From Ochromonadaceae sp. CCMP2298 (Eukaryota > Sar > Synurophyceae > Ochromonadales > Ochromonadaceae), in assembly GCA_026770595.1 (NCBI GenBank), contig MU633852.1:1-21419 (forward strand): a DNA stretch of 21,419 nt. Direction: 5' to 3'. This document shows positions 1-21,419 of the stretch, piece by piece. Within the stretch, counting starts at the first letter, position 1, and the number at the start of each line of letters is the position of its first letter. A model generated the notes under the pieces. That model searched no databases. It saw only the letters and a list, made by a program, of their open reading frames with translations, and was not told the origin of the DNA. A program made the position numbers and the translations under genes.

Positions 1-274
1 GGGGGGTGGGGGAATAGATGGGTTTGGGGGTGTCAGGGGGATAAAGGGGTGGGATGGGGTTGGTCGGAGGTTTAAGGTGTGAGGGGGTTTGAGGCAGTAG
101 GGGGGGATAGAAAGGTTGGGGAGGGGGGGGAGGACGATAGAGGTGGAGGAGTTGGTAAGTTATGGGGAAAAGAGGCAGAGGGAGCAGGAAGCAGGGGGAG
201 CAGGGGGCAGGGGAGCAGATAGAGGTAACTTCAAACTTATTCTCCTGACTTAAGCACATTCCTGACTTCCTTAC
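1..274 (-). other. Partial last intron of the giant gene (G-rich on plus strand)
   Basis: After the GTAAGG donor at 274 no exon can be recognised. The plus strand is G-rich, with a short minisatellite of GCAGGGGGA type at about 180-217. Positions 153-188 (gttatgg...aggcagagggagcag) match 624-652 inside the intron 548-716, so the two introns are related copies. Confidence 0.6.
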
Positions 275-3200
275 CGTATTCGTGGAGTTCTCCGCCACCA
301 CTTCTTTCTTCCTGACTTTGTCCAACTCCTTCGCCTCCCTCTCCTGAGAGGCCGTAGACCGAATTAGAGACACCATGAAGTATAAAATGGGTTTTAGAAA
401 AACAGTTAGCGTATAGAAGGTGGAAAAACCAGATTTGGCACCAGGGGGGGATAAAAAGGCGTCTTTTGTGTACTTCCTACCTGGTTTAGCTCCAGCCCCC
501 TCAGCCTCTCCCTCAGATCCACGTTTTGCTTCTTCGCCAGCAGTGATCTTGGTAGTGGGGGGGTAGTGGGGGGGTAGTGGGGGGGTAGTGGGGGGTTTAG
601 AGGTGGGGGGTTTGGGGAGAGGTGAGTTATGGAAGGCAGAGGGAGCAGTGGGGGCGGTAGATATAAGACACGTATTCCTGACATCCTTATGCCTGGCATA
701 CTTAATCCTGACTTACCGTGTATCAGCCTCCTGGCGCAGCTCGAGCAGAGATTGGCGGAGGTGTGCGTTCATTTCCTTCTTCTGGCGCAGTTGCTCCTGA
801 GAGGCCGTAGACCGAATAAAATAAACCATACCATATAAAGTTTTAGTAAAAAAACAGTTAGCGTGTTCGGGGTAAAAAGACCAGATTTGGGTAGGGAATC
901 ATTAGAAAAAGACGTATTTTAGGTTACCCGGACACTTACCTTGAGGTTTCGCTGTTCCGCGTACATCAATAGCCTCAGCCGCTCTGACTCTGCCGCCGCT
1001 GACTCTAATTCTTGCTTTGACATGGAGTTTGAGTTCTGCAGGATTTCGACCTTGTCTGACTGCTGCTGGAGGAGAGTGCTGCGGGGGGTGGGGGGGAGAG
1101 GGGCGCCGAGGGGGAGAGGTGTGGGGGGTGGGGAGGGGAGAGGAGGGAGAGGTGAGTATATAGGTCGATATGAGTTAGCACAATTCTTGGCATGCGTAGA
1201 AAAGCATTATAGTAAGGATATATTAATGAGTCAGGGATTCACGGAGTCAGGGAATCAGGGACTCACTTTCTCTGCGCCAGCTCCTGCTGCTTGGACGCCA
1301 TGGCCTTTTTGTTCTTCGCCCCTCTGTGCAGCTCGAACACACGCCGGGCCAAGGCTCTAGTGATGGTCTCCAACAGACTGTGCATCGAGACCAGCTCGTC
1401 CTCATTTGAGGCGGTGCAGGTGGTGGGGGCCTCAGCCATGTCGTCCCACCTGAGGGTCGTTTCTATCCGCCCCTCTCCATTCCCCCCACCCCTATCCCCC
1501 CTCTCTTTGTCGCGGCGCTGCGCGGCGGGCGAGCGCACCGCGTGATAGGGACTGGTGGGGGCACTTTTACCCCTACTGGTGGGCTCGGGACTGCCACTAC
1601 CCCCCATACCCCCACTGCCCATAAAGAAATCGCCCCCCCCCTCTCCAGCCGCCCGCATCAGCGCACTCTCCTCTGCCGTGAAGTACACAGTCAGACTGCC
1701 CTGCACCTCGTAGCACTCGAACACGATCTCTAGCTGCTCTAAGCCATCAAGCTCGCCCCCCGCCTCCCCCCACTGGTCTTTCAAACTGGCATGCCCGAAC
1801 CTCGACCCCCCCTGTACCTCCTGAGTTAGCGAAAAGGACAAACCAGCTGCCCCGGTTCCAGCCCCAGACCCGGCAGGTGCAGGAGTAGATAAAGGGGCCG
1901 ACTTGTCCAGACCCTCCCGGCGGTGGCGGTCTTTCTGCGAGAGGTCTAGGTAGGTGACGCGGTGCGAGTGGGGGGATTGGGGGGAGTGGGGGGTGATGGC
2001 AGAGAGATTGGAGGGGGATTGGAAGGCTGCCCCCCCACCCATACCCCCCATACCACCACCCGCACCACCCATACCACCCCCACCCCCCGTGGAGGCATTG
2101 GAGGCGTGCGTGGTCTGATTGGAGGCATAGTCGATGGTGCAGTTGTACACCGTACTGCTAGTAGCTGTGTCCCGTACGAGCAGTGTGGAGGCCCGGATAG
2201 GCAATCGACACAAAACCTCCTGCACCTGAGAGGCCGTAGTCCGAATTAGATATAAAGAATAAAGTTGTAGAAAACCAGTTAGCGTATAGAAGGTGAAAAG
2301 ACCAGATTTGGGTAGGGAATCCTGATAAAAAAGACGAAGAAGACGTCTTTTAAGTTATTCGGGGGTGGGGGGGGGGCACCTACCTGCTGCAGTAGTCCGG
2401 CGGCTCTGTTGCCCTCTGAGGTGAGCAGTGTAACGACGGAGGAGAGGAGGGAGATGCGCGCCTGGGCAGCCTGAGTGGAGGGTGTGTGTGGATGGGTGTA
2501 GAAGTGGTTAAAAAGACAGATGGGTGGGTGGGAAAGTGGTTAGGGGGCTGGTAGCAGTGATGGTGGTAGTAGTAGTAGTAGTAGTAGTAGCGCATTGAGT
2601 GGATTATTAGTTATGTATACCTGTAGGTACACCTCCCACTCTGCCTCCCACTGCCTAAGGCCCGCCGCGGCCACGCAGTGCTGCAGCAGATGTGCCACAG
2701 AACTGCGCAGCATGCGTACTGTAGGCAGACAGGGGGAAAGCAATCCCACCACAACACCCTCGACCATCTCCGCTAATGCTAGCTCGTCAGGCACCGGCCT
2801 GAGCTTCTTTTTGCCCCTCTTGCCCCCCTGAGCCCCCACCGCCGGCGCAAGTCCAAGCGGCGCCCCGGTCATGCCGTGCACCCCCTCAGAGGGAGTCAGC
2901 TGCGCCCGCAGCAGCATCTCCAGTATAGCTGGCTGCTCCGCACCGGCCACATACACCAGCAACTGGAATTCTACAGTGCCGTCGGGGCGTAGATATCGCC
3001 CCACACCTGCACTCTCTTCCACTATCGGGACCTTCGCCTTGTGCCCCGCCCCCTGCCCAGCCCCCGCCTGTCCGTGGCTGTGGGGGGTGGTAACGGGTAC
3101 GGGCACTGGCAGCAGGCTGAACCCCTCTGCTGTCTCCCTCAGTGCCTGCACCTGCCCAGGCGTCAGAGCTGACCTCCCCACACTCCATTGCTTCTGCTTA

Positions 3201-6200
3201 CACCTCCGGTACACCGCAGCATCCCTCACCAGCGCATAGGTAGGCTTCACCACAACCCTCTCGTCCTCCTCGTCCTCCACCTTGGCCTTAGCCTTCTGCT
3301 GCGCCTGCTGCGCCTTCTCCTGCCTCTGTGCCTTGCGAACAGCCGCAGTGCCGGCCACAGGTCCTGAGCTCTTGGACTCACCGAAATCTTCAGCCCCACT
3401 GTCCCCCTCCTCCTTGGGCCTCTCCTCGGGCAGAGAGGCGGTTAGCCATACACCAACTGGGGAAGAGGAGGAGCTGGCACCACCTACACCCATCCCCATC
3501 CCCATCCCCCCCCCCATCCCCCCCCCCCCCCCCTTACCGGTACCCACCCCCAGGTTGACCCAGTGCAGCCTAGCATTAACCCAAGCCGCCTCGAATGTAT
3601 TGGCGAATCTCGCTGGCGCCGCCTCCTCATCCGAGTCCTCCCCCCCCCGTGTAGGCAGAGCCATGGGAGTCTTCTGGAAGACATGGGAGAGGGTGGCGGC
3701 CACCTGCTCCACAGTCAGATCCAGAGGCCGGAAGTCCGCTCCTACACCACCACCTACACCTGACCCTGACCCTCCTATACCCCCTATACCTCCACCTCCA
3801 CCCCCTACACCACCCTCATCAGGAGCAGCCAGCAGCAGCACCTGCTCAAGACACTGCGCGCTTCGACCGCACACAAACCCCTCCAACAACGACTGCTGCA
3901 GTGCCAGATCCCTCTCCGCCCTGTGTCTGCACAGCACCATGCTGGTAGATAGATATCTTGTCACACCCGTCAGGAATCCGAAATACAGTGAGGGCCGATC
4001 CTGCTGCACCCCATGCCCGCCCCCGTGGGAGGTCTTTCTCTGGCTATGGCTGCTACTGTGTCCGTGGGGGCTGTGGGGGCTGCTTGGTTCCTTGGAGTCG
4101 AGCATTTTGTTCACGTATTCGTCTCTGGCTTCGATGGACTCAAACACAAGCTGCAGGGCCCATGCGTGAGAGGGGTTGCACTTGGTGGACCGCTCGCCCA
4201 CCCCCCCCACCCCCCCCCCCGTACCGCCAATACCACCACCCATACCCAGACCCCCCATACTCTGCCCCATACCCACACCCCTTCTGGTCTGGTCATACCT
4301 CCCCCCGTACCCCCCCTGTTCGTACTGTCCCGGAGGCTTACTAGGCAGCAGCACGGCCTCCACTGCGCCCCGCAGAGTCGCCTCGACCCAGGGAAGTCGC
4401 AGCACAGGTGAGCCGAACTCGTCCGCACCCTCCCCACCCACAGAGCCCCCACCAGCCCCAGCACCCACACCCACAGTCCCGCCCACCATAATTCCCCCAC
4501 CCCCACCTCCAGCCCCACCTGCAGGGTGGGGGTCTTCGTGATGCAGGGCTGCGTGCTCTACTACTGGTATGATGATGCTGCGGGCCAGGGCAGGCACGCG
4601 CTGCTTGTCCCCCCTCTCCCCTCCCTCCTCCACCTCCACGATATCCCCCACATCGACGATCAAAGGCACCCCCTGGTACACAGCCAGCGCGGCCATTCGC
4701 AGGGTCGCTGCCTCGTACTTCGCAGCCGCAGCGGACGCGTAGGCTACTGTATTTACACTGCCGCCCGCGCCTACACCGGGGTAATCAACCGTCAGCATGC
4801 GCTGCAGCGCGCGGCGGCTTAGCGACTTTGTTGCCGCCTCGAAGCGGTGGTCGAAGGGGTCCTCGGGCGCGCGGCTCGCAACCGACATTGCGTCAGTGCG
4901 CAGCAGGTCTGCGATCTCCCCACACACCGTGCGGCTGAGAGGCCGACCGAATTATAAGTATTAAGTTTGAGAAAAACAGTTAGCGTATAGAAGGTGAAAA
5001 GACCAGATTTGGCACCAGGGGACGATAAAAAGACAGTACTATACATGTGGATGAAGATGAAGACGAAGACTCTGGAACAGATAATAAGACGTTTTTGTGT
5101 AATTTGGGGGGAGGGGAACACCTACCTGGCCGAGATCATGACAGCCTTTGTTGCGCCGCCCAGCACCTCGCAGATGCTGTCCTGCGCGCTCGACACGCTG
5201 TGCAGCACGTCCTGCAGGAGGGGGGAGAACTCTGAGCTCTCCGGGGCGAGGTTAATGGAGCCCAGACTGGAGCCACTAAGATCTGCCGCCCCCCCGTGTG
5301 TGGTTGCGTGCAATTCTTCGAGGAGGTCCGCATACCTGTATACGAATACCGGATAAGAGGGACACATACGTAAGATAAGAGGGTTAGATGAATACAACGA
5401 ATAAGAGGGTTAAATACATATGCCAGAAGTCTAATCAGCACATACCGTCTGTGGAGCTCGTTGTCGCTGGATTCCTGCATAAGTCTTTGACTCGACCCCA
5501 CCAGTGCGGTAGAAATAGCCGTGACCTCCGCGTTAGCTAGAGAAATCGCCTCCCGCTGCTGCTGCGCATGCACGTATGTCTGTACCAGCTCCGCCACACC
5601 TGCGAAGGCCTTGATGTCCGCAGCACTGGGCCGTCTCGTCATCTCCACCACCAGCAAGTCGTCATGATCGCGCAGCACCCGTTCGTTGCGAGAGGCCGCC
5701 CCTGCTCCCTCGAAATGCACAACCTTCCACTTCGAGTTGGCCAGCGCCGCACCCCCACTCCCTGTGGTTTTGCGGACCGGGTCCTGGTGAGTGCCTGCTG
5801 AGCTGATCCCGCAGGCTAGTATGTACTTCGACGGAGCCCCCTCGGCGCGCTCGACCTCCGACGTGCCTGACGCATTCGACGAGGAATTCGACCCGTATTT
5901 GGAGGAAACGCGGGGCTTGTAGGACAGCACGGAGGCGGAGTAGAGCACGAAGATCTCCATATTGGAAGACTTCATAGCAAAGGCCTCGTACTTCTCCACC
6001 AATGTGTACAGAGGTTGGTAGGAGCTGGGGCGCACGTGGAGTACGTGGGGGGGGGCCTCGGGAGCCCCTGATGACACGACGCCCGCCGCGTAGGAGAACA
6101 AAATGCCCTCGTACACCACGCCTGTGTACCGTGCGTCCGCCTCTGTCTCGTCGTTCAACTTCGCTGAGGGCTGCTTCATGGAGGGCGTAACGTGCAGCAT

Positions 6201-9200
6201 GCAAGCTTCGGCGCGCAGCAGACTGGCCAATAACTTCCCCACCCACTTAGACACGGGACTGTACACCGCCGCAGCCGCGATCTTGTCCAGCTGCATCTGA
6301 GCATGCCTCGAGCTGCGCTCGGACCTTCCTGACTTTCCAGACTTGCCAGACTTGCCCGAGGCGACACTCTTATTGCCCTTCGACACACTCTTATTGCCCT
6401 TATTGACAGACTGGTTTCCTGACTTTCCACCTACCGAGCGACTACCAGAGGAGCGAGAGGAGTTCGCTGAGGGTGCTGACCCTTTTTCTACCACCACCTC
6501 AGGCGGGCGTACTGGGTCTACGATGTACTGCAGCGCCTCTGTATAGGGTGAGGGTAGATGTAGAGGGTATAGAAGTGGTGAGTGGGTGATTGAGTGGTTG
6601 AAGGGGTTTGACGGATAGGTACTGCATAGTATATAGTATATAGTATAGTATTAGTATGGTATAGTATAGTGTATTACAGTGTAGTTTAGTAATAGTAATA
6701 GTACAGTATAGTGTACAGTATAGTGTACAGTATAGTGTACAGTATAGTGATAGTATAGTAATAGTACAGTATAGTGTACCTGCGAGGGCCCGCCAGTGCA
6801 CCCCGCCGGTCATGTTGTGCTCCGTATCGAGCCTGTAGGTGAACTCGGCTGGTCCGGAGATTCGCCCCTTGGCCATGATTCCTAGTCCTGCGTGCTCTAG
6901 GGTGCGGCTCTGCAGGGCCACGTGCTGTCCCATATAGGTCAGCGCCTGCTCTACGCGGTCCCGCCCCACCCGGCGCATCGCATCCCCCAATTCGACATTC
7001 AGATCGCCAGAAGAGTCGTCCCCACCCCCACCCCCACCCCCATTGGAGCTCTGTCCCATACTAGACCCCCCCCCACCCTCCCCACCGGCGGAGGAGCCCT
7101 GGGGGGCGGCGGCTTGTATACCAGGGTTGGCGATATCTCCCCCCACGAGGAGGTACTGCACTACGGCGACTACGACTTTTTCACCTGAGAGGGAGGGTAA
7201 TTGTTGTTTGTAGGGTGGGTTAAATAGGTGTGTAGGGTGGGTTTAATAGGTGTATAGGGTGGGTTTAATAGGTGTTTGGGCTGGGTTACCTGAGACGGAT
7301 ACGAAGCTGTTGCCGTCGTCCGAAAAGTCGTCCCCCATCTCCTCCACCACAGGCAGCGACGCCAGGATAGGCTGGTACAACAGTCGAACCGTGGGGAAAC
7401 TCCCCTCACCCGTGAAGCCCTGCGCACTGTAGAAGGCCAGTAGATGCGGCAGTGCTTGCAGTAGCTCCTCCCCCTGCACCACCACAGTCTCCTTGCTGAT
7501 CAGCGCCTCGAGGAACTTAGCCTGACTGTGCAGAGTGTTCACATCCAGACAGTTATCGCTAGTACGCACCGCGTTCGACAGGTTCATAGCGCTAATATGC
7601 GATCCAGGCTCCAGCACCCACCACACAGTAGCGAATATGTCGGGCGTGGTCTCTTCGAGCGCGTGCTCCTTCAGCTGCATGTGCGGGGTCTGCTTGAGCG
7701 CCTTCAGGGTGGTGGCGAACTCGTTCGATGTGTCTGTGTCCATACTGCCCTCCTCCTCCTCCTATTTATAGAATGAGTATAGAATGGGTATAGAATGGGT
7801 GGGTTTAATACATATTTGCGATATATAGAGGAGAAATGTACATTTGTAATATATAGGGGGGTTACCTCATCAGCGCACGCCGCCAACGTGCTGAGAAGCA
7901 GGTTGAGGTAGGGAGACATCTCGTCATATGCTGCAAGCTCTGATAAAACCTCCAATGCTTTGCGCAGCAGCTGGGTGGTGGAGACAGCTGAGAGGCGTCC
8001 GAATTAGATAAACCAAAGCATAAAATTTAAACCAAAGCATAAAACCAAAGAAAGACAGTTAGCGTATAGAAGGAAGGACCAGATTTGGGTAGGGATAAAA
8101 GACATGATGAAATGACGAACACGTCTTTTATGCGACTCTCACCTGTGGCGATGGCCGAGTGCAGTGCCACCATGTCGGGCACCACGGCGTCGTTTTCTGC
8201 CACCTTGTCGTCCCCGCTCTGCATGAGGGGGAGGGGGTTAGAAGGGTAGAAGGGTAAGCGATAAAACTATAAAAGCTTATAAAACCCACAACAATATAGT
8301 ATAAATAGCTATAAAACCCAAAACAATATGGTATAAATAGCTATAAAACCCACAACAATATTGTAGAAATAGCTATAAAACCCATGATTGAGGGCCTACC
8401 TGCACGCTATCGTCATCCAGCTCCTTGTGGTTGGGGGGCAGTATAGACAGGCTACTGAGAACGGCCTCGTGGTAGGCCCTGAATGCCCTCGCCTGAGAGA
8501 GTGGACCGGATTAGTTATTAGTACAAAGTTTCAGAAAAAAAACAGTTGTATGTTCGAGGTGAAAAGGCCAGATTTGTGTAGGGAATCATGATGGGTCCAG
8601 GGAATCCTGATAAAAAGACAGATCAAAAGACATAAATGTAATGCGGACACCTACCTTTGCGCGGCACTCCTCACGGGAAGACTTGTAGTTGGATCGGATC
8701 TCGAGTCCGTTCTCTTGCTCCTGCGTGTACAGGTGCGTTACGCCTATAGGGGTACAGGGGGGTAGAGGGATAGAAGTGGGTTTAGGTTTGTATGCGGGTA
8801 AGGGTTAGTGCTATTGCTAGGTGGGGCTATTGTTAGGGTTGGTGTCAGATAGCGACATAGTTAGGGTAAGTGACATAGGACAGAACCGTTGACGACAAAG
8901 GACGTGGAGACATAGACAAGGACATACTTACCTAGGAACTTCTCGATTACCAGTGCCACGGTGCCCATAGCTTGCTGACCCACGGTGTGCTGAGGTGGGT
9001 AAGAGGTGGGTAAGAGGGTAAGAGGTGGGTAAGAGGGGAGGAACGTGAGTACATGCAACCCCGAACATCCTTCCACTATAACTCTATCCCTGTACTATAT
9101 ACTTATCTCACCTGCAGATTAGGGTCGTTCAGCAGCCTCTGCATTATGTTCGGGTCGTTCCCCTGCCCCCCCACGCTCACGATGGGCTCACTATCCCCCA

Positions 9201-12200
9201 GATGAGGTGCATCCTTCAGCATACTGCCTAGCTCCTGATGAATCTGCAGCAGGCTGCACGCCAGTCCTTGGCTATGCACCTGCAGTGGAGGGTCGTGGGT
9301 TGTTTAATTATTTGTGGTTTGTACTAGTGTTATTAAGCGCATTAGTGTTATTCAGCGTGTGTTATTCAGCGTATGAGTATTCAGCATAGAGCACAGAGGA
9401 TAGTACGTACAGCACATACGTACCTGCATCTGCGCCCTGTACCCCCGCGTATCAGACACCTGCATAGATGAGTCGAACTGCTGTCTGTAGAGGCTGCTCA
9501 CCAAAGCGCCTAGGCGTAGACCGAATTAGATCAAAGTACATAGTTTTAGAAAAACAGTTAGCGTACAGGTGGAAAGACCAGATTTGGTTAGGGACTCATG
9601 ATAAAGAGACGTCCAGGGCACGATAAAAAGATGTTATTTGTGTAGTTCTACGGACCTGTGGTATCCCCCACGCGCATTATGCAGCTAAGGATGCCCCTTG
9701 TCAGGCTGAGAGGCGTCCGAATTAGATACACCATAAAGAATAAAGTTTTAGAAAAAGACCAGTTAGCGAGTGTTCCGAGGTGAAAAGACTAGATTTGGGT
9801 AGGGAATCATGAAAGGTATGACAAAAAGTCGAAAAGACGTATTTTGTGTAATTCCTACCTGGAGCAGTGGCGGACCGCCTCGGGGGTGATGGGGACCATC
9901 TTGTTCTTGGTGTCGGGGTGCAGCACGTCCTCGCGGGATATGTAGGAGAGCGGGGGAAAGCGCTCCTCCCCCTCTGTGTACAGGGTTGGGGTTAGGGTAC
10001 GGATAAGGGTAAGGGTAAGGGTTAGAGTTAGGGTTGGAAGGAGAGGGTTATATACACAGGTGTGGGTGGGTTTTATAGATGGGTGATGGGGAGATGGGGT
10101 GATGGGTGTGGGGTGTGAGTTGTGTGTGTCACCTGTGTCTTGGGAGTTCATACTGAGGTAGACCAGCACCGAGCCCACGACCATCTCCTCACCCACGCCC
10201 CCCCCCGACGGCGAGGCAGTTATCAGCACCTGCAGTACGCGCACGTCGGATTGTAGAAACAGGTGGGCAGCAGATAGCACCTCCTGGACGGCGCCCACGT
10301 TCGTCTTGGACCGCGTGGTGGCGCTACGATGAGAATAAAGGTAAGAAAAATAATATGGGTAAAGTATGTGCTAATTGCAAAATTCCGAAAAGTATGAACA
10401 CGCGCAGTATTATGTACCTGTGCTGCAGCATCTTGATATGCTCGAGGGAGTTCATTTCCACGTAGTGTATGGAGGTCTTGGTGGCAGGTGAGGCGTACTG
10501 GGTGAGTGAGAGAGTGAGAGGGGTAGAGAGTGAGAGTGAGAGGGTGAGAGGGTGAGAGTGAGAGGGAATGAGAGAGGGAGACTTAGACTTTGACGCATAC
10601 TTAAACACATCCTTACCTCCTCCCCCTGGGGCAGATGTCTGGCCTGGAACTGTGCCTGGTTGTGCCTCTCCAGCAGCTCCCCGTGAGCAAACCGGTCGAA
10701 CACCTGCTGACCTGAGAGGCCGAATTAGAGAATCAGTATAAAGTTTTAGAAAAATGGTTAGCGTATAGAAGGTGAAAAGACCAGAGTTGGGTAGGGAATA
10801 ACAAAAAGAGGTATCAAACGACAGATAAAAAGACTCCTTTTATGTAGTTCAACCTACCTGTGGCCGGTGCGAGAAGACGTGAGGGCCCCTGCAGCATGGT
10901 CATGACCTTTCCTGACTTTGATGATACAGTCCCGACATCTGAGCAGCACCTGACAAGCTCCACTTCCTTATCCTTGGGGATCTCCCCCTGGAAGCGCAGC
11001 TGGTACCCCACCGCGCCCAGACATCTGTCCCCTATGATGCGCTTGATGATGGTGATCGTCTGCATCAGGATGCGCTGGCACTGGCCCTCCACGTTGGGTG
11101 TGGGCGCCTCCTGCGGCTCCTCCTCTCCTGTTATGTGTTGTGGTATGTTGTGTGATATGTATTATGTGTTGTCGTATGTATTATGCAGTATGTATGTATT
11201 ATGTGTTATATATTGTATATTATGTATTATATTTCCTCACCCTTGAAGTCGCTGTTTAGCCCCTTCGTAGCTGCCTTCACCAGCTCTTCTATACCCGACA
11301 TGCACTCGAACCAGGGCTGGGACGCGGCCAGCACTCTTGAGGGCAAGAAGAGCTCATCTAGACAGGCCTGAAGTCTCGCCATACTACAATCGGGGGTAGA
11401 TAAACATTATAGGAGAGGGTTAAATACACATACGAGTATAGAAGTGGGGGCTTAATACACATTATAGTATAGAAAGTTAGGGTTTAAATACCTGGAGGGC
11501 ACAATCATGCGGTCTTGGCGGCACGCGATGATGTAGTAGTGGTCCAGGGCGGCATTCGATACCCCGTCCAGCACACCCGCCTCCTCGTCTGATTCCTCCC
11601 CCCCCTGTGCGTGCTGGCTGGGCTGCAGGGGGGAGTAGAGCAGTATGAGGGAGTGGGGGTCGACTAGGGCCATCTCGTGGGCGCCCTTGGTGGCCTTGTC
11701 CAGGTTGGTGCCCACGTCCACGTAGCTAGAAAAGGTAGAAATGGTAGAAATGGTAGAAATGGTAGAAAAGGAAGGTTGTGTGAGCTATCAGATAGGTGCA
11801 CGGGACAGCATCAGGACACGTATAGAACGTATATGGCAGTTCTATATAATCATATGGGCAATTATAAGGTTGTAATAAGGATGTGTTCTTACCCATACAA
11901 GTCGAACTCATGCCCCCCCTCCAGCCCCCCCCCATGCCCTCCCCCATGGTGCACCCCGTGTCTGCGCTTCTGCTGCTTGTCGTGCATGTCTGGTTGATAT
12001 GTGGGTAGGGTCAATATGTGGTTGGGGTTAATATGTGGTTAGATGGGTTAATATGGTGTATGTGGTAATAGATAGGGTGTTTACCTGATAGATAGTTGTG
12101 CAACACGCCCCCCATACCCCCCTCCAGCACGATCAACCTCGATGTACGTACTCTGTTCACACCCTGCCCCATACCCACACCCACACCCGCGGGGGCCTCC

Positions 12201-15200
12201 TTTTCCCCCTTTTTCTTCGGCTCGGTGGCCTTCAGGTGCGCCTCCTCTATGCGCGCATGGTCCGTACGCGCACTCCTCACAGCGTCCCTCACTGCCTCAC
12301 ACAGCCTCAGGGGCAGCACACAGGTGGCTAGTTGGTTCTCCTTGTGGTGGTGGTGGTGGTGGCCGTGGGGGGTGGTCTTGACGGGCGGCAGTAGGTGCAC
12401 GTACCGCACATCCTCTATCTCGGGGTCTGAAGCGGATCCGGTCGATGTGGAGTCATCGTCGAAGAGGGCTACTTCGGTGGAAGTGACCTCTCGGATGGGC
12501 ATCAGCATGAATGCAGAGAAGGGGGGCACGAGGGTCAGTTGCCGCAGCAGTTTGCGCTGGTATAGGTAGCGGAAGTGGGGGTGCTGGTTCTTCTCCCCCC
12601 CTGTGTCTGTATCGGCCAAAAGACGTGTGGATTCGTGCACGATTGTGGAGGATAGGGCGTTTATGGCGATATTTGATGCCTGCGTGTGCAGCGCATCGTC
12701 TTCCCACTGAGCGGCCGTAGACCGAATTAGATAAACCATAAAGTATAGAGTATAAAATGGGTTTTAGAAGGACAAGTTAGCGTGTGTTCGAGGTAAAAAG
12801 ACCATATTTTGGTCCAGGGGGGGATAAAAAGACGTATTTTATGTAACTCAACCTACCTGCTGCTCCTCGTCCAGGGTCTCGTAGCGCCGCAGTTTCATGG
12901 GTGTGTATATGGGGTAGAGGGGCTGGAACAGGGCCTGGGAGTGGGTGGCGATGAAGGTCTGCAGTATGCGCTTCCACATGGGTGCTGACTGCATTTTATT
13001 GAAAAAACCCACACTTATGGGCGTGGGATTTGCGGAAAACCCAACCGCATGCGTGGGAATTGAGGGGGTGGGTTCGTCCTTGGACTTGACTGGGTATTCG
13101 TAGTGTATGTACACCGAGGCGTTCATACCGATCAGGTCGTCCTCCGTGTCTGATTCAGAGTCGCTCTCGTAGCGGCGCTTCTTATGCGCCCTGTGTCTCT
13201 TGTGCACATGCAGCACCGCCCCCCCCCGCTCCTCGTACACCCCCGCCAGAACATCCACCATTACCTCGGCCGTTACCACCTGCACCTCCACCACCCCCCC
13301 CACCTGAGAGGCCGACCGAATTAGATATAAAGTATAAAGTTTTAGAAAAACAGATAGCGTAAAGAAGGTGAAAAGACCAGAATTGGGTAGGGACTCATAG
13401 AAGACGATAAAAAGACAGATAAAAGGACGTATTTTTATGTAATTCTATAACACCTACACCTACCTGGAACATAGGAGGCGCTTGCACCTTTCTTCCACGC
13501 ATCTTCACCCCCTCTAGAGTCTCCGGCACGCGCACCCAGTCCGCCGTCTGCGAAGACAGGGCCCACTTCCTGTGCCGCCCTTCTTCCAAGCCTGTATATA
13601 TAGTTAGGTGTAGTAGGAGTCAATACGCATATAGATGTAGGTGTGGGGGGTTAGTACGCATACATATACACATACACAGATACAGATGCAGATGCAAGTG
13701 AAGGGGTACCTGTGCTCTCGTCCACCACGAGCTCTATGCCTATGACCTCCAGGGATCCGCCCAGGGTCCCGTCGCCCATCTGGTGGGTGGTAGAAAGTGG
13801 GGAGGTTGGAGTGGGAAACGTTATTGACAGATTTAACCCAATAGGTCAAATCAAACAGAACAATGGATATACCCATTAACCTCAGACACCTACATACCCA
13901 CATGGCACCTATATAATCACCCACATACCACCCATATACCACATATACCACTACATCCCCTCCACCAATACCCCCAGCCCCCCCACACGTACCTTGGTGC
14001 CATAGTTGGCGAAGTGCAGCTTGTGCAGCTGGGAGAAAAATTCAATCGCTACCTGGAGAAGTGGGTTTAATACACATTATAGTATAGGAGAAGTGGGTTT
14101 AGTGCACAGAATATTGAGAGGGGTTTAATATACAGGATATTGGGAGGGGGACAATTTGTGTTTAGTATAGAGAGGGGGTTAATATGCGGTTTAGAGAGGG
14201 GGGGTTACAGGCGGGATGGAGGGAGGTAGGTAGGAAGTGCGGTTGAGAAGGAGACATCTCACCTTCAGAAGACCCTTGCGGAAGGACACAAGCGCAGCCA
14301 CATTGCTGCCAGGCATGCCCAACGTGTTTCTGTGTAATTGCGCTAGATTCTCCTCCAGCGCCTTGGTAAACGTCACCTCTTGCTGGTTCTGGCCCTTCTC
14401 GGTGGCAAGGTTGGCGACAATCTGCTGCGTGAGAATGAGGTCCCGGCGGGCGATGGCGGTTTGGAATAGGGCTCGCACTTGTATGACGGAGGGGGAGTGG
14501 GGCAGGGGCGCGTAGAGGGGTCCGCGCAGGAATCTGCCGGTTAGTAGGACGATATTGGAGGCTCCTGGGTTAACTTCAGAGAGTGATCCCCCCAGCGACC
14601 CCCCCTTGCTTTTGAGCCGGTAGTCGTTGAAGTTGTGCGCATCGAGGTAGAAGCCGATTGTGTGGTGCATACGTGACGCGGCGCCGGAGTCGCACAGTGT
14701 GTGGAGGGCGCGCTTGTGGTCGAGGTGTAGCAGGGGGGCGAGCTCTGAGACGTCGAAGCGGCGCAGGCCGACTATTTCTCGTAGCAGCTCGTGTGTGTAG
14801 ACGTGGTGGCCTTGCAGATGGTGCGGCGTGTGGTGGGCACCGTGCCCATGCCCCTGTCCGTGCCCCTGTGTACCATGCCCGTGCAGTGCTCCCTTCAGGC
14901 CCCCCCCAGTCCCCGCCCCCAGACTCTGCATCACCAGCACTCTGCATGCGGCGGGCAGTTCCTGCGCCGCCATGACCCTCACCGCCCCCCTATTATCCAC
15001 CAGTCGGATGCTGGGCTCGCCTGTCTCCACCGTAGTGAAGCGAGTCGTGCGCTCGGCGCTGATCGTCCCCTGAGTGTCGCTGGGGGTGCCTGGGAGGCCG
15101 TAGACCGAATTAGATAAACCATAAAGTGGATGGATTTTAGAAGGAAAAACAGTTAGCGTATGTGTTAGAGGGTGAAAAGACCAGATTTGGTCCAGGGGAC

Positions 15201-18200
15201 GATATAAAGACGTCTTTTATGTAATTCTACCTACCTGGTATCACGGTTTCTGTTTCGTGGTCAGCGGTGATAACGAGTGCCCAATCTGTGTGCAGCAGGG
15301 TGCAGAGGTGGTACATCATTCCGGCATAGGGGGTTGGTTGGGGGGGGTGTAGGGGCAGGGGGTTGAGGGGGGTGGGGGCCTTGAGGAGGTGGTCGGCGGC
15401 CTCGGGGGCTACGGCGGGCATCAGCAGGCTAAATAGTCCGTCAGTGATGGAGTTATTGTACCGCGTAGCGTCAGCGTAAGACGTCGACGAGGGGCCCGAC
15501 ATGCTCCCCTGGTCCTTTGCTTTAGCCGTCCCCGTGGTCGGGAATAAGCTGATAGGTCGGCAGTTATGCGCGTAGAGGAAGTTGAGCACCATGCCTCCTA
15601 CTGCCTGAGAGATGTGAGATGTGAGATATGGCATGTGAAAAATGAGATGTGCGATGTGAGATGTGCGATGTGAGATGTGAGATATGACAAGTGCGATGTG
15701 AGATATACGGTGTGCGATGTGACAAGAGAGATATGAGGCAATCGCATACCTCCACTATATCCACCACCCCAAACACTAGCTGCTGGCGACCAGCCTCGAG
15801 TAAATTGTAGCTGCCAGCGATCTGCTCCATGTACGCTGCGTGACTGACGTGCGCACTCGAGGGGGCGAAATTGGGTCTATTTCCCATCCGACCCAGCTGG
15901 GGTGTATGCGTCTCGACCAGAAAGGACGTAACGTGCACCAACATGCAGCCCTTCACGCCCCCCATCTCGCACGCCTCGGCGGCCGTCATCTGCGCATATA
16001 CGGCCTCTTGCTGTTCGGGTAGCAGTAGCGGCACAGCAATCAGCGTGTGAAACTCCACCTGCGAGCCGTCCGTGGACCGAATTAGATATACCATAAAATA
16101 TAAGGTTTTAGAAAATAAACCAGTTAGCGTATGTTCGAGGTGAAAAGACCAGATTTGACACCAGCGGGGGATAAGAAGACGTCTTTTGTGTAGTTCTACC
16201 TACCTGCGGGCCTCTCTCCATCGCCGCCATGCCCCCCTTGGCCCTCCCAGAGTTGGTGGCGATTTTCTCGTGGAAGGAGACCTCCGAGTAGCTCTGCACT
16301 GCAGCTGTGTCCCTCAGTAACGCGCTGCGCAGCACGGTATTCAGCGCGTCCTCGTGCCCCTCGACTGAGTCTGCGTCCTTCAGCGGCAGACGACTGACCA
16401 CGCGTTTGCAGTTGAGCAGCGGGATCTCGGCCAGGAAAGCTGACCCCTCTGGGCCCTCTATAGCGACCCCCGTGGTGGCATACTCAGTCACCTCGTTCAC
16501 CAGGCTGGCCGATGTAACGAACATCTCACACCGCACAGTGCGCACCACCTGGCTCTCCACCTCTTCCTCCTCCCCCTCCTCGTCCTCCCGAGGGGGCCTG
16601 AGAGGCCGCAGACCGAATTAGATAAACCAAAGTGTAAAGTTTTAGAAAACCAATTAGCGTACAGAAGGTGAAAAGACCAGATTTAGCACCAGGGGAGGAT
16701 AAAAAGACCGATAAAAAGACGTCTTATAGGTAATTCCTACCTTAGGCAGTCCACATGGGAAGTCAGGAACTCCTCCAGCACGCCCGGCACAGACTGCCAG
16801 ATTTTCTCATAATATGCGTCGTCTACTACGTTATTCGCCTGCAAAACGTCATCCTCGTCGGAGCGCTATAAATGGGAAAGGGATGAGAGGTAGTAGGGAT
16901 AATTGTTGAAGTTGGGAATAATAGGGACAATTTCTTATCCAATACGCGTGTGTACGGGGGGTCGGTGTCGGTTACATAAAACAGCGTCGGTAATGTACCT
17001 GCGACAGCGTCTCCATCAGGTTTGACTCCTCTACGGACACCACCCCCGCTTCCTCCAGCATCAGGCCTACGGAGGCTGAAGAGCTAGAGAGCAGGGCCGA
17101 GAAATCAGCCGCTGCGGCGCCTTGCAGCACCTGCGAGGCAGCTTTGCGAGACTGCAGCTGGTTCAGCAGGGCGGTCATCACGAGCTGAAGGATAAGAAAA
17201 GAAGGGAAGAAGGGAAGGATAAGAAGGATAAGAAGGGGATGTTAGGCACATCACAAATAAGAAAGCAACACAAATGGACGTTGGGTGTATATGTATGTGA
17301 AAGCATAATGTGTATGTATGTGTATATTTATACATAATACTATATGTATATGTATGTGTATGTATATATGCGTGTATATGTGTGGTATGCGCACCTGCGC
17401 GGCGTGCTCCACTACCGGGAAGAAAAAGTCCAACGCGGCCGAATTGGGCTCCGCAGAATGGTCCCCGAAGTATTCGTTTGAGCCGTTGAGCACCATGGGA
17501 TGGGCGCCGAAGTGCTCCACTGCGAGCTATAGGCGTCCGTAGACCGAATTAGATAAACCATAAAAGGAGAACACGTTATTAGCAAATAGACCAGTTAGCG
17601 TATGTGTGTTCGAGGGTAAAAGACCAGATTTAGTCCAGGGAATCATGATAAAAAGACGTCGATGTAATTCGGACACCTACCTGGCGGATGGACAGTTCGT
17701 CGGAGTATATGTCGTGCATGGCGTGTGAGTGCTCGGGTCTGACGGAGATTATCCACACGCAGCGCTCTGCGATCTCGTCGTCCTCGTCGTTCTCCTGGGT
17801 CATGCGCAGCACGATGGCTTCCTGATATAGCAACTCGGCGGGGCTAAGGGAGGAGGAGTTGTGGCGCCGCCTGCCGCGGCCCTTGGACTCGTCGTTGAAC
17901 AAATCGAACGCGCTCTCGGTAGCTGGTACCGTCCCGCTGTGCACGTAGTTCACCACCGGCAGTGGTAGGATGGAACTTAGACTCTCCATGGTGACCTTGG
18001 AGGCCTTAGAGCGGGCCCGGTACTTGAGCATTTCATCAAAAGTGCGGCTGCGGAAACTAATGGTCTCCTGTGCAACCGAGCTGGAGCTCATAGCGATCCA
18101 AGACTCGCCCGTTTTCACCACAATGGTCGCAGTGAGAGAGTGGTATTTCATCTTGGGAAGAACCTTGGACACCTCCTTAACCAGTATGACGGGCTTGCTG

Positions 18201-19939: not shown

Positions 19940-21277
19940 TCATATTCTATGGCCAGATAACGGCTGTTTTAACACCCCAGCGGCTATCGTCTCTGGAGTC
20001 GTGATTGCCGAACTATCTATCAGCGTAATCTCCTCCGTAGTGGGATCAAGTCTCATAATGAACTGACTCATTTCGGGAATCGCATAAACACACCCATCGG
20101 CCCCCACGAAACCCCCTTGAAATTTGTCCTTCTGCTTTGGCAGATTTCCGATCTCCTTTATTTCCATAGTGTAGGGGTTGATCTTAAGCACTGTGCATGC
20201 GTTAGCCGGCATGGCGTAGAGACACCCGTCTGGGCCTAAAACCGCCCCCTGCCATTTGTTTTTGTCGTCCGAGACTGAGCCGAATGTACTCACTCGCCCT
20301 GTGCTGGTCTCAATTTTCAGAATCGTCTGTGCGTCCGACGGCATCCCATATATATTCCCCTCTCTGTCCACCCCGCCCCCGAGCCATTTGTACTTCCCCT
20401 GCATCACCTGGGGATCCTCAAGGGGGTCCAGGTGTAACTCCTCTAGGCCCACCCGGGCGTCATCTATGTGGGGTGAAATCTTCAGTACTGTGGCTGCGTG
20501 AGCTGGGAAACCATAGACACACCCATCGGGCCCCACAGCCCCCCCGTGCCATTTGAAGTCACTGTCCCCAAAGTCCCCTAGGATTGACACCTTGTCATTG
20601 AAAGGGTTGACCTTCACCACCCCGTGTGCCTTGTAGGGGATGCCGTAGATGCAGCCATCCCTTCCTACTAGAGTACCGTACCACTTCTGGCCACCATTGG
20701 CGTGCGATGGGATGTCCAACTGCGAGACCTCGCCCGTAGCAGGTGCTATCTTTAGGACGCTTTGGGCGTTGCACGGCACCGCGTAGATGCACTCGTTGGC
20801 CAGCGAGGCACCGTGCCACTTCCACTGCCCCTCCGGCAGGACTCCAAGCTCCTCAACCTCCTCCGTGGCGGGGTTGATCTTAAGCACAGATGTGGCGTGC
20901 GCGGGGATGCCGTAGATGCAGTTGTCCTTCGCGAGCACGCCGCGCAGCCACTTGAACTGCCCCACGAAGGGCCCGCCGAAGGTTGAGATCTTCCCCGTAG
21001 CTGGGTGTATTTTGATGACTCGCTTGGCGTGGCTTGGGATGCCGATAATCGAACCCTTGTCAGCTGTGTAGCTGCCCCCCAGCCACTTATGCTTGCCAAA
21101 CAGTGGATCGGGGTTGTTCACAAACTGGGGGTTCGCGTAGATGCCCGTGGGGCGGGGGCGCTTCTCCACCCGGCGCAGTGCGAGAGCCCTCGTGACGCAG
21201 ACTGACATGAGCATCAGCGCCCAGCCCACAGAAGAGGTGGAGAGCGCCCAGGCGCCGAGCCACCCGCTGGGGGGCAT
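19940..21277 (-). CDS. Secretory or membrane-anchored protein with eight KW-G / IYG-P / VLKI-P repeats (probable beta-propeller)
   Basis: An intronless 445-aa protein. The ATG at 21277 is the first in-frame ATG after a stop at 21371-21373. Residues 1-36 include a hydrophobic run (VGWALMLMSVCVTRALALRR) that reads as a signal peptide or type II signal anchor. From about residue 60, eight repeats of about 45 residues follow the pattern KW-x-G-x-x-x-x-x-DG-x-IYG-(I/M)P-x-x-A-x-x-VLKI-x-P-x-T-x-x-(V/I), for example FKWHGGAVGPDGCVYGFPAH and KWQGAVLGPDGCLYAMPANA. Repeat 5 has a longer loop (HIDDARVGLEELHLDPLEDP). Eight similar beta-rich units suggest an eight-bladed propeller. I have seen such proteins in algae and protists, but I know no proven function. 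Ligand or glycan binding in the secretory route is a guess. The last repeat, ending EMSQFIMRLDPTTEEI, is the most diverged. Confidence 0.92.
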   Translation of the reverse strand: MPPSGWLGAWALSTSSVGWALMLMSVCVTRALALRRVEKRPRPTGIYANPQFVNNPDPLFGKHKWLGGSYTADKGSIIGIPSHAKRVIKIHPATGKISTFGGPFVGQFKWLRGVLAKDNCIYGIPAHATSVLKINPATEEVEELGVLPEGQWKWHGASLANECIYAVPCNAQSVLKIAPATGEVSQLDIPSHANGGQKWYGTLVGRDGCIYGIPYKAHGVVKVNPFNDKVSILGDFGDSDFKWHGGAVGPDGCVYGFPAHAATVLKISPHIDDARVGLEELHLDPLEDPQVMQGKYKWLGGGVDREGNIYGMPSDAQTILKIETSTGRVSTFGSVSDDKNKWQGAVLGPDGCLYAMPANACTVLKINPYTMEIKEIGNLPKQKDKFQGGFVGADGCVYAIPEMSQFIMRLDPTTEEITLIDSSAITTPETIAAGVLKQPLSGHRI

Positions 21278-21419
21278 GACCAACCTCGGGATGGAAGTGA
21301 TGTAATGGCGTGATAATATGTGTAATTTCTCAATGGAAAGAGCACAACATCCACATCCAGGACATCCCCATCAAATATGAATTTAGCGGTTGTACACCAT
21401 TCCGCAAATCCCAATCCGT
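21278..21419. other. Upstream flank of the repeat-protein gene
   Basis: These 142 bases precede the start at 21277. They hold an in-frame stop (21371-21373, TGA on the minus strand) and no obvious TATA box or other gene. The short frames in this stretch have no recognisable features. Confidence 0.5.

Follow-up and report, generated by a model that had tools for sequence, protein, structure and literature searches.

The repeated sequence in the window (the whole 21,419-nt stretch of Ochromonadaceae sp. CCMP2298 DNA analyzed here) very probably belongs to an introner family: short (~115-190 nt), non-autonomous mobile elements that turn into spliceosomal introns upon insertion into exons. A preliminary description had claimed 15 same-orientation copies of one element, making up 15 of 39 introns. 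All 15 copies were confirmed, in a single orientation, across positions 344-17680, and our gene model likewise placed 15 of its 39 introns in one sequence family, with lengths of 137-191 nt and phases 0, 1 and 2 (8, 4 and 3 introns, respectively). The features, with introns as predicted by the model, are:

11..18445, minus strand: host gene, 39 modelled introns, run up to the window edge (gene model)
344..480, minus strand: introner copy 1, intron, phase 0 (nhmmer and gene model)
797..939, minus strand: introner copy 2, intron, phase 0 (nhmmer and gene model)
2226..2383, minus strand: introner copy 3, intron, phase 0 (nhmmer and gene model)
4935..5125, minus strand: introner copy 4, intron, phase 2, the longest at 191 nt, with extra internal sequence (gene model)
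7988..8142, minus strand: introner copy 5, intron, phase 1 (nhmmer and gene model)
8493..8654, minus strand: introner copy 6, intron, phase 0 (nhmmer and gene model)
9510..9655, minus strand: introner copy 7, intron, phase 1, aberrant acceptor CCTAG (gene model)
9706..9858, minus strand: introner copy 8, intron, phase 2 (nhmmer and gene model)
10712..10857, minus strand: introner copy 9, intron, phase 1 (nhmmer and gene model)
12707..12856, minus strand: introner copy 10, intron, phase 0 (nhmmer and gene model)
13304..13463, minus strand: introner copy 11, intron, phase 0 (nhmmer and gene model)
15090..15234, minus strand: introner copy 12, intron, phase 1 (nhmmer and gene model)
16059..16203, minus strand: introner copy 13, intron, phase 0, eight of its final 10 nt identical to those that end the upstream exon (gene model)
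16598..16740, minus strand: introner copy 14, intron, phase 2 (nhmmer and gene model)
17527..17680, minus strand: introner copy 15, intron, phase 0, ambiguous acceptor, CCTATAG or CTCGCAG (gene model)

The host gene was modelled by dynamic programming on the minus strand with a bonus for introns covering a repeat, giving a predicted protein of 4171 aa within the window (the model reaches the window edge) and a reading frame open across all 39 junctions. Without the bonus the model contained 38 introns, 37 of them common to both versions, and still recovered 13 of the 15 introners. The plus-orientation motifs of the preliminary description call for one correction of wording: as the gene runs on the minus strand, plus-strand CTACCTACCTG is the donor (exonic CAG followed by GTAGGTAG) and CTGAGAGGCC the acceptor (GGCCTCTCAG at the intron end). 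Acceptor placement carries more uncertainty for copies 9510-9655 and 17527-17680, since their ends depart from CTCTCAG. Protein searches returned no relatives for a 948-aa part of the predicted product (E 1e-10; candidates of ~520-1660 aa) or for a 419-aa part (E 1e-5), and Pfam gave no matches in five interior exon ORFs and, for the 5' exon ORF, none that attained its curated cut-off.

The family extends well beyond this gene. A genome-wide search for more copies, as the preliminary description had proposed, yielded roughly 200 hits across the assembly: a core 20-mer matched 201 times (≤3 mismatches) versus once for the reversed control, and a 15-mer 178 times (≤1 mismatch) versus 0 for the reversed pattern, which shows a repeat family rather than chance. 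Correcting the 201 core matches for recall (56/64) gives an estimate of ~230 copies, and most genomic copies sit in protein genes. For comparison among copies we used the 89 usable distinct ones out of 110 modelled. Similarity runs from donor to acceptor and ends at the splice sites; the exon flanks differ, in line with the earlier claim of unrelated exonic neighbors. Both splice sites lie within the element, together with a motif resembling a branch site and inverted ends that match imperfectly; introner GC is 0.39 compared to 0.55 for the window. The two modelled genes contain 27 other introns, all outside the family, and a search among these for a second introner family gave only 18-49 nt matches. 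Two patterns had no exact matches in viral_contigs, a collection from which records near this genome may be absent.

Evidence for splicing came from RPB1, the main subunit of RNA polymerase II, in which 22 of the 25 introns modelled after position 6700 of contig C185 are introners; all 25 were common to models with and without the repeat bonus. The spliced protein aligns, over the portion examined, to the solved Rpb1 3h0g, and is identical to database protein P0001 (1793 aa) over 1605 consecutive residues covering all 22 introner junctions. P0001 is encoded on a contig of 5,830 nt, which we infer to be a transcript, and the 22 introners total 3,372 nt, too much for that contig. Because a short contig without room for the introners encodes the identical protein, these data support exact removal of the element from RPB1 mRNA and, for this gene, bear out the earlier expectation that the segments are spliced rather than retained. 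Among 20 RPB1 hits from P0002-P0054 on contigs >10 kb, 19 were continuous across all 20 insertion sites tested, with no indel >6 residues, and the remaining one, P0011, across 19 of 20; RPB1 sites gain no codons from insertion. Orthologous introns at the same sites, raised earlier as counter-evidence, are not indicated by these proteins, which suggest recent intron gain in RPB1 if, as we infer from the proteins, the relatives' calls are unspliced. The RPB1 sequence also puts the host near chrysophytes. Separately, 10 of 21 exon-only gaps between RPB1 introners fell within 130-210 nt compared to 3.7 expected (P = 0.0004, for a range picked post hoc); this nucleosome-like spacing is a lead only, with a P of 0.018 once other introns are retained and no such excess in the window gene (2/14 or 0/14 gaps).

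Copies were placed almost exclusively in the sense orientation. Five long stretches totalling 67 kb contained 64 copies, all of which fit as introns in sense gene models or had sense coding flanks; flank scores alone favored sense in 59 of 61 evaluable copies. Overall, sense coding flanks outscored antisense in 97 of 101 evaluable copies; antisense was favored by >5 units in three, one of them an RPB1 copy whose sense orientation is certain. No copies were assigned to noncoding DNA by the long-stretch models, although these assume coding throughout. In the window, 18% of survivable CWGG target sites are noncoding and none of the 15 copies occurs there (P = 0.05).

CWG precedes 81 of the 89 introner copies compared to 14 of 27 other introns (p = 2.4e-5, the others coming from two genes only), and CTG is found at the left of 10/89 introners and 0/27 other introns. 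Because CTG is unused by the other introns, the preference is not simply that of the spliceosome for exon ends; counts of GT, AG and, in part, G at -1 are not independent evidence because they are built into the gene model. No general target site duplication (TSD) was found: over the 89 copies the mean end match was 2.90 versus 2.74 in shuffled controls, slightly above their 95% range (2.66-2.83), and fell to 2.81 without a single 11-bp copy. Direct repeats of 11 and 13/14 bp at two copies with deviant 3' ends are the two clear exceptions among the 89, and insertion is therefore not uniform. A 3-bp CWG duplication does not fit: CTG-left copies end in CAG (9) or TAG (1) and AAG-left copies in CAG (6/6), in models that demand AG, and at RPB1 position 8475 the left TG belongs to a Trp codon common to all eight aligned proteins, host included.

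Both 12-nt end motifs (at least 8/12 positions) were found in 82 of the 89 copies. These inverted ends, GTCCGAATTACATAAA / GTCCGAATTAGATAAA, have consensus arms agreeing at 11 of 12 positions, where a terminal inverted repeat (TIR) is defined by at least 6 nt, and agree at 15 of 16 in the GTCC variant (read by eye). Pairing within copies (9.06/12) was no better than with shuffled partners (8.99), and this absence of compensation speaks against an RNA stem maintained by selection and makes the ends look like inherited DNA ends. Introner ends were not found at any of six transposase loci (three of the 11 Harbinger-type and all three hAT-type), and no mobilizing partner was identified among them. 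A profile hit where one hAT ORF ends, on contig C408, was weak (9.4 bits, E 0.005 in 36 kb) and was counted as chance, since part of it falls within the ORF and the DNA beyond terminates in a different TAGGGATG-like repeat, taken to be a hAT end. Two Harbinger loci, 83% alike over 2.5 kb, were also rejected as partners, having TTCGGTTC-type ends rather than introner ends.

Given that the element is an introner, we consider DNA-based, MITE-like spread the probable route. The inverted ends are most simply explained as TIRs of a MITE-like DNA transposon, which would be mobilized in trans by a putative transposase. Insertion would occur in exons after CWG, mostly before G, with little or no target duplication, so that both splice sites would be borne by the element and the frame exactly restored; noncoding and antisense copies would have been lost, either purged or decayed.

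A less probable alternative is RNA-based spread, in which introns, once excised, insert by reverse splicing into other pre-mRNAs or into exonic DNA and are then copied back. The mobile unit would be exactly the intron, always sense, in transcribed exons and without a TSD. Several observations are as this route predicts: similarity ending at the splice sites, the missing general TSD, the 97 of 101 copies scoring for sense flanks, the zero copies placed in noncoding DNA (by models that assume coding throughout), and the 0/15 window copies at the noncoding CWGG sites. Yet reverse splicing does not predict inverted terminal repeats, which are present here without within-copy compensation, nor a target preference that includes CTG. 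A more tentative reading combines the two routes: a former TIR transposon whose ends turned into splice sites may now spread as the GT-AG intron itself, sense-only in exons and in bursts within certain genes, notably RPB1 (22 copies). The relic would supply the inverted ends and the palindromic CWG target, and the two copies lacking the usual 3' end would owe their acceptors to a target duplication of 11-14 bp, representing a second way in which introns arise, by break repair. If true, the bursts hit the largest subunit of the very polymerase that makes the introner's own transcripts.

That the copies are old spliceosomal introns, homogenized by gene conversion or a shared splicing requirement, is very improbable. 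Such an origin could accommodate a pairwise identity with a median of only 79% (maximum, 96%) and the nearest neighbor lying on the same contig for 19 of 89 copies compared to 11.1 expected. This excess, with the closest pairs sharing one contig, leaves some local spread possible, but mean identity was 0.785 for both same-contig and different-contig copies. The latter result argues against homogenization and against local duplication, whether of the gene or of blocks of exons and introns, and, with the differing flanks, upholds the earlier claim of repeated insertion. End-to-end identity stopping at the splice sites and the 27 other introns outside the family also speak against old introns, as do the RPB1 relatives, whose proteins continue across the insertion sites, unless their gene calls were spliced. 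Finally, coding-sequence repeats or retained pseudogene segments are scarcely credible, even though the window gene lacks a relative in our protein searches and the splicing evidence is from RPB1, because the same element is exactly removed there and the window model is open across its junctions.

We compared the family to known introner systems using their published descriptions. Aureococcus and Micromonas introners are described as MITE-like with TSDs and/or TIRs and resemble the present family as short, similar introns, many per genome, with inverted ends, low GC and restored frame (Gozashti et al. 2022, PMC9860276). Aureococcus is, like the present host, a stramenopile. However, the Aureococcus sp. 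introner is reported to add 12 bp including an 8-bp TSD (PMC9860276), whereas our family has no general TSD, adds no RPB1 codons and, unlike those of both genera as described, carries both splice sites. Acanthoeca sp. introners are described as having TIR without TSD, as here, in an unrelated host (PMC9860276, Fig. 2D). Fungal introner-like elements, reported without TSD or TIR and interpreted as RNA-based (PMC4457414, PMC9860276), share the missing TSD and confinement to genes; inverted ends and a CWG target set our family apart. Amoebophrya elements likewise have inverted repeats at intron ends, but are defined among non-canonical introns with 3-5 nt direct repeats, whereas the present copies fit GT-AG (PMC7789003). 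Most likely, the present family joins the known introners as another, MITE-like family.

The origin of introns is an old open question, and of the sources still operating introners are the best known. In the present case, the conserved and alignable RPB1 contains 22 introner-made introns in one species while the proteins of relatives pass through the tested sites, so that the sites of insertion, the restoration of frame and the timing can be followed at base resolution. With inverted ends but no general TSD, a palindromic CWG target and sense-exonic placement, the family lends itself to testing whether spread is DNA- or RNA-based.

All 15 copies that the preliminary description placed in one gene, in the same orientation, are present in the window sequence. 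The gene lies on the minus strand, and in its sense the element reads exon end CAG, then GTAGGTAGAATTACATAAAAGACGTCTTTT ... CCAAATCTGGTCTTTTCACC ... CGCTAACTG ... GGTTTATCTAATTCGGTCTACGGCCTCTCAG, then G. Using a gene model built on codon usage, GT-AG boundaries, absence of stops and a reward for introns covering a repeat, we obtained 39 predicted introns, 15 of them repeats as originally proposed, and a predicted product of about 4171 aa for the gene, which spans 11-18445 of the window. The unrewarded model had 38 introns, 37 common to the rewarded model, and recovered 13 of the 15 repeats. Searches with two parts of the predicted protein found no relatives. Two other introns of the gene (15605-15749 and 8268-8384) are mostly tandem repeats with 14-bp and 32-bp spaced units, and positions 19940-21370 of the minus strand hold an open reading frame of 476 aa that contains DUF6923-type repeats (PF21959).

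The gene for RPB1, the largest RNA polymerase II subunit, is on contig C185, and a solved Rpb1 structure (3h0g) aligns over this region (alignment listed in part). From position 6700 on (C185:6700-15398; stretches L039 and L040), the RPB1 model has 25 introns, 22 of which are introners, and it is unchanged without the reward for repeats; the model upstream of 6700, where the first residues of protein P0001 are not fully reproduced, was left out. The spliced product equals P0001 over 1605 consecutive residues, with all 22 introner junctions inside, and the two diverge past this stretch, in the C-terminal heptad region. The contig encoding P0001 (1793 residues) is 5,830 nt long, which leaves ~450 nt beyond the coding length. 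Because the 22 introners total 3,372 nt, that contig lacks them, and it is most simply a transcript. Since it encodes the identical protein, the RPB1 introners are spliced out exactly from all three phases (0, 1 and 2). RPB1 is dense in introners (22/25 introns), while four readable random stretches hold none.

Across the assembly (11.25 Mb, 724 contigs), a core 15-mer with ≤1 mismatch matched 178 places versus 0 for the reversed pattern, and a core 20-mer with ≤3 mismatches matched 201 versus 1; the repeat family is genome-wide and not due to chance. Because the 20-mer recovers 56 of the 64 profile-found copies in five long stretches, we estimate arithmetically ~230 copies in total. A profile scan of 154.5 kb, picked because it bears copies, returned 111, and four readable random stretches (16 kb; a fifth was masked) returned 0. 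Copies are clustered, with 75 exact 20-mer matches on 48 contigs compared to 71 contigs expected at random (contigs weighted equally). Of the 111 matches, one was too short and 110 were modelled; an intron resulted for 102, and removing duplicates and lengths outside 100-200 nt left 89. Among these 89, median pairwise identity is 0.79 and the highest value 0.96; the mean is equal within and between contigs (0.785 v 0.785). The nearest neighbour lies on the same contig for 19/89 copies versus 11.1 expected, and the closest pairs are on C185. Two regions, C209:3935-10635 and C223:10407-16082 (L053-L056), each hold three copies with the same printed flanks in reversed order, either through duplication in the assembly or through a genuine inverted duplication.

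Under an intron model in which GT and AG are obligatory and G at -1 is favoured, introns end in CTCTCAG in 65/89 copies, downstream exons start with G in 61/89, and upstream exons end in CAG (71), CTG (10), AAG (6) or others (2). CWG, the preferred left exon end, precedes 81/89 introners compared to 14/27 of the other introns, which were called under identical scores (p 2.4e-5); these scores carry no information on position -3. Ahead of the acceptor lie CTAAT, CTAAC, CTGAT or CTTAT variants, a motif that we take to fit the branch site. The copies have inverted ends, with GAATTACATAAA close to the 5' end and GAATTAGATAAA read on the opposite strand of the 3' end (both in 82/89). Within a copy the arms match at 9.06 of 12 positions, against 8.99 with shuffled arms, so the ends look inherited rather than maintained as a stem by compensation. 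Some copies, including one on C115 near 6685 and many on C185, carry GTAGGT, the donor motif, as a tandem array (GTAGGTGTAGGTGTTGTAG...) and thus offer several candidate donors each; the C115 copy near 6543 has CTCTCAC instead of the usual acceptor.

A general target duplication of 2-3 bases does not fit the left ends: all six AAG ends are paired with a CAG intron end and the ten CTG ends with CAG (9) or TAG (1), although both splicing and the model require AG. Agreement between left exon end and intron end averages 2.90 bases versus 2.74 when shuffled (95% range 2.66-2.83), falling to 2.81 without the single copy that reaches six; identity is just above the shuffled range at 5 bases (3.20 v 3.07-3.19) and within range at 3, 8 and 12. 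Two copies with altered 3' ends carry longer direct repeats, a perfect 11-bp one (11/11) at C185:12004-12118 (L040) and one near 2112-2262 of C183 (L047) matching 13/14 by eye and 9/10 in the end-match computation; in both, the acceptor AG is supplied by a repeat of the upstream exon. The window copy at 16059-16203 has an end match of 8/10.

The assembly contains 11 matches to a Harbinger-type transposase domain and 3 to a hAT dimer domain, and introner ends were not found at the six loci read (three of the 11 Harbinger-type, three of the 3 hAT-type). Two Harbinger-type loci, L079 854-3333 and L080 872-3365 (C296 and C669), resemble each other at 83% over 2.5 kb and have TTCGGTTC-type ends.

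Among the RPB1 matches P0002-P0054, 20 are on contigs >10 kb (10.7 to 179 kb), and we compared 20 introner sites before residue 1600, allowing no indel over 6 residues. Nineteen of the 20 run uninterrupted through all 20 sites, as do the two nearest short-contig relatives, P0002 and P0004; P0011 carries nine extra residues at one site, and two insertions in P0025, 50 and 54 residues long, lie elsewhere. Among the long-contig relatives, P0003 comes closest, sharing 81% identity with the host RPB1. Several proteins (P0004, P0005, P0021 and P0024) run into unrelated residues before or within the heptad region, as unspliced gene calls do at introns, so we read the relatives' genes as uninterrupted at these sites. 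We infer that their RPB1 DNA would be empty there, pointing to recent gain. P0041, labelled Ectocarpus fasciculatus, is from an annotated genome, and its gene call may be spliced.

In a FastTree phylogeny of 45 of the 120 RPB1 proteins listed, the host falls in a 32-row clade (local support 100). Because this clade includes Paraphysomonas vestita and leaves out diatoms, Tribonema, Chrysoparadoxa and oomycetes, we regard the host, with moderate confidence, as chrysophyte-like. A row labelled Ectocarpus fasciculatus inside the clade is probably a contaminant.

As excerpted, Gozashti et al. 2022 (PMC9860276) recognize introners as intron groups similar to near both splice sites, count 548 families in 175 genomes, cover ocean metagenome genomes in supplementary tables and give Acanthoeca as an example of TIRs without TSDs. 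The family here fits that excerpted description and is already within the known introner kind; the literature matches listed, as excerpted, included no paper on chrysophyte introners, and we do not claim absence from published families.

All 64 copies in the five long stretches (~67 kb) fit the sense orientation.

Sense copies by locus
Window gene, minus strand: 15, by gene model
RPB1, C185:6700-15398: 22, by gene model
C526: 9, by gene model
C590: 6, by gene model
C353, kinesin gene (PF00225): 5, by gene model
C185, minus strand: 7, by coding flanks

The predicted protein of the C590 gene (L041) is very large, has PSSQPTSQPS-type repeats and looks like a surface protein. On flank scores alone, sense is ahead in 59/61 evaluable copies of the long stretches, the exceptions being window copy 344 and one RPB1 copy; in the whole set it is ahead in 97/101, with three antisense by >5 units and 9/110 not evaluable. 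Our placement test assumes CWGG sites, both orientations and survival of sense-exonic or noncoding copies only. In the window, 18% of survivable CWGG sites are noncoding and 0/15 copies lie there (P 0.05); if this share, measured in the window only, held for all 64 copies, P would be about 3e-6 by arithmetic. The unusual points of this introner family are its density in RPB1 and the way it combines DNA-like ends and a DNA-like target with placement of an RNA-like kind.
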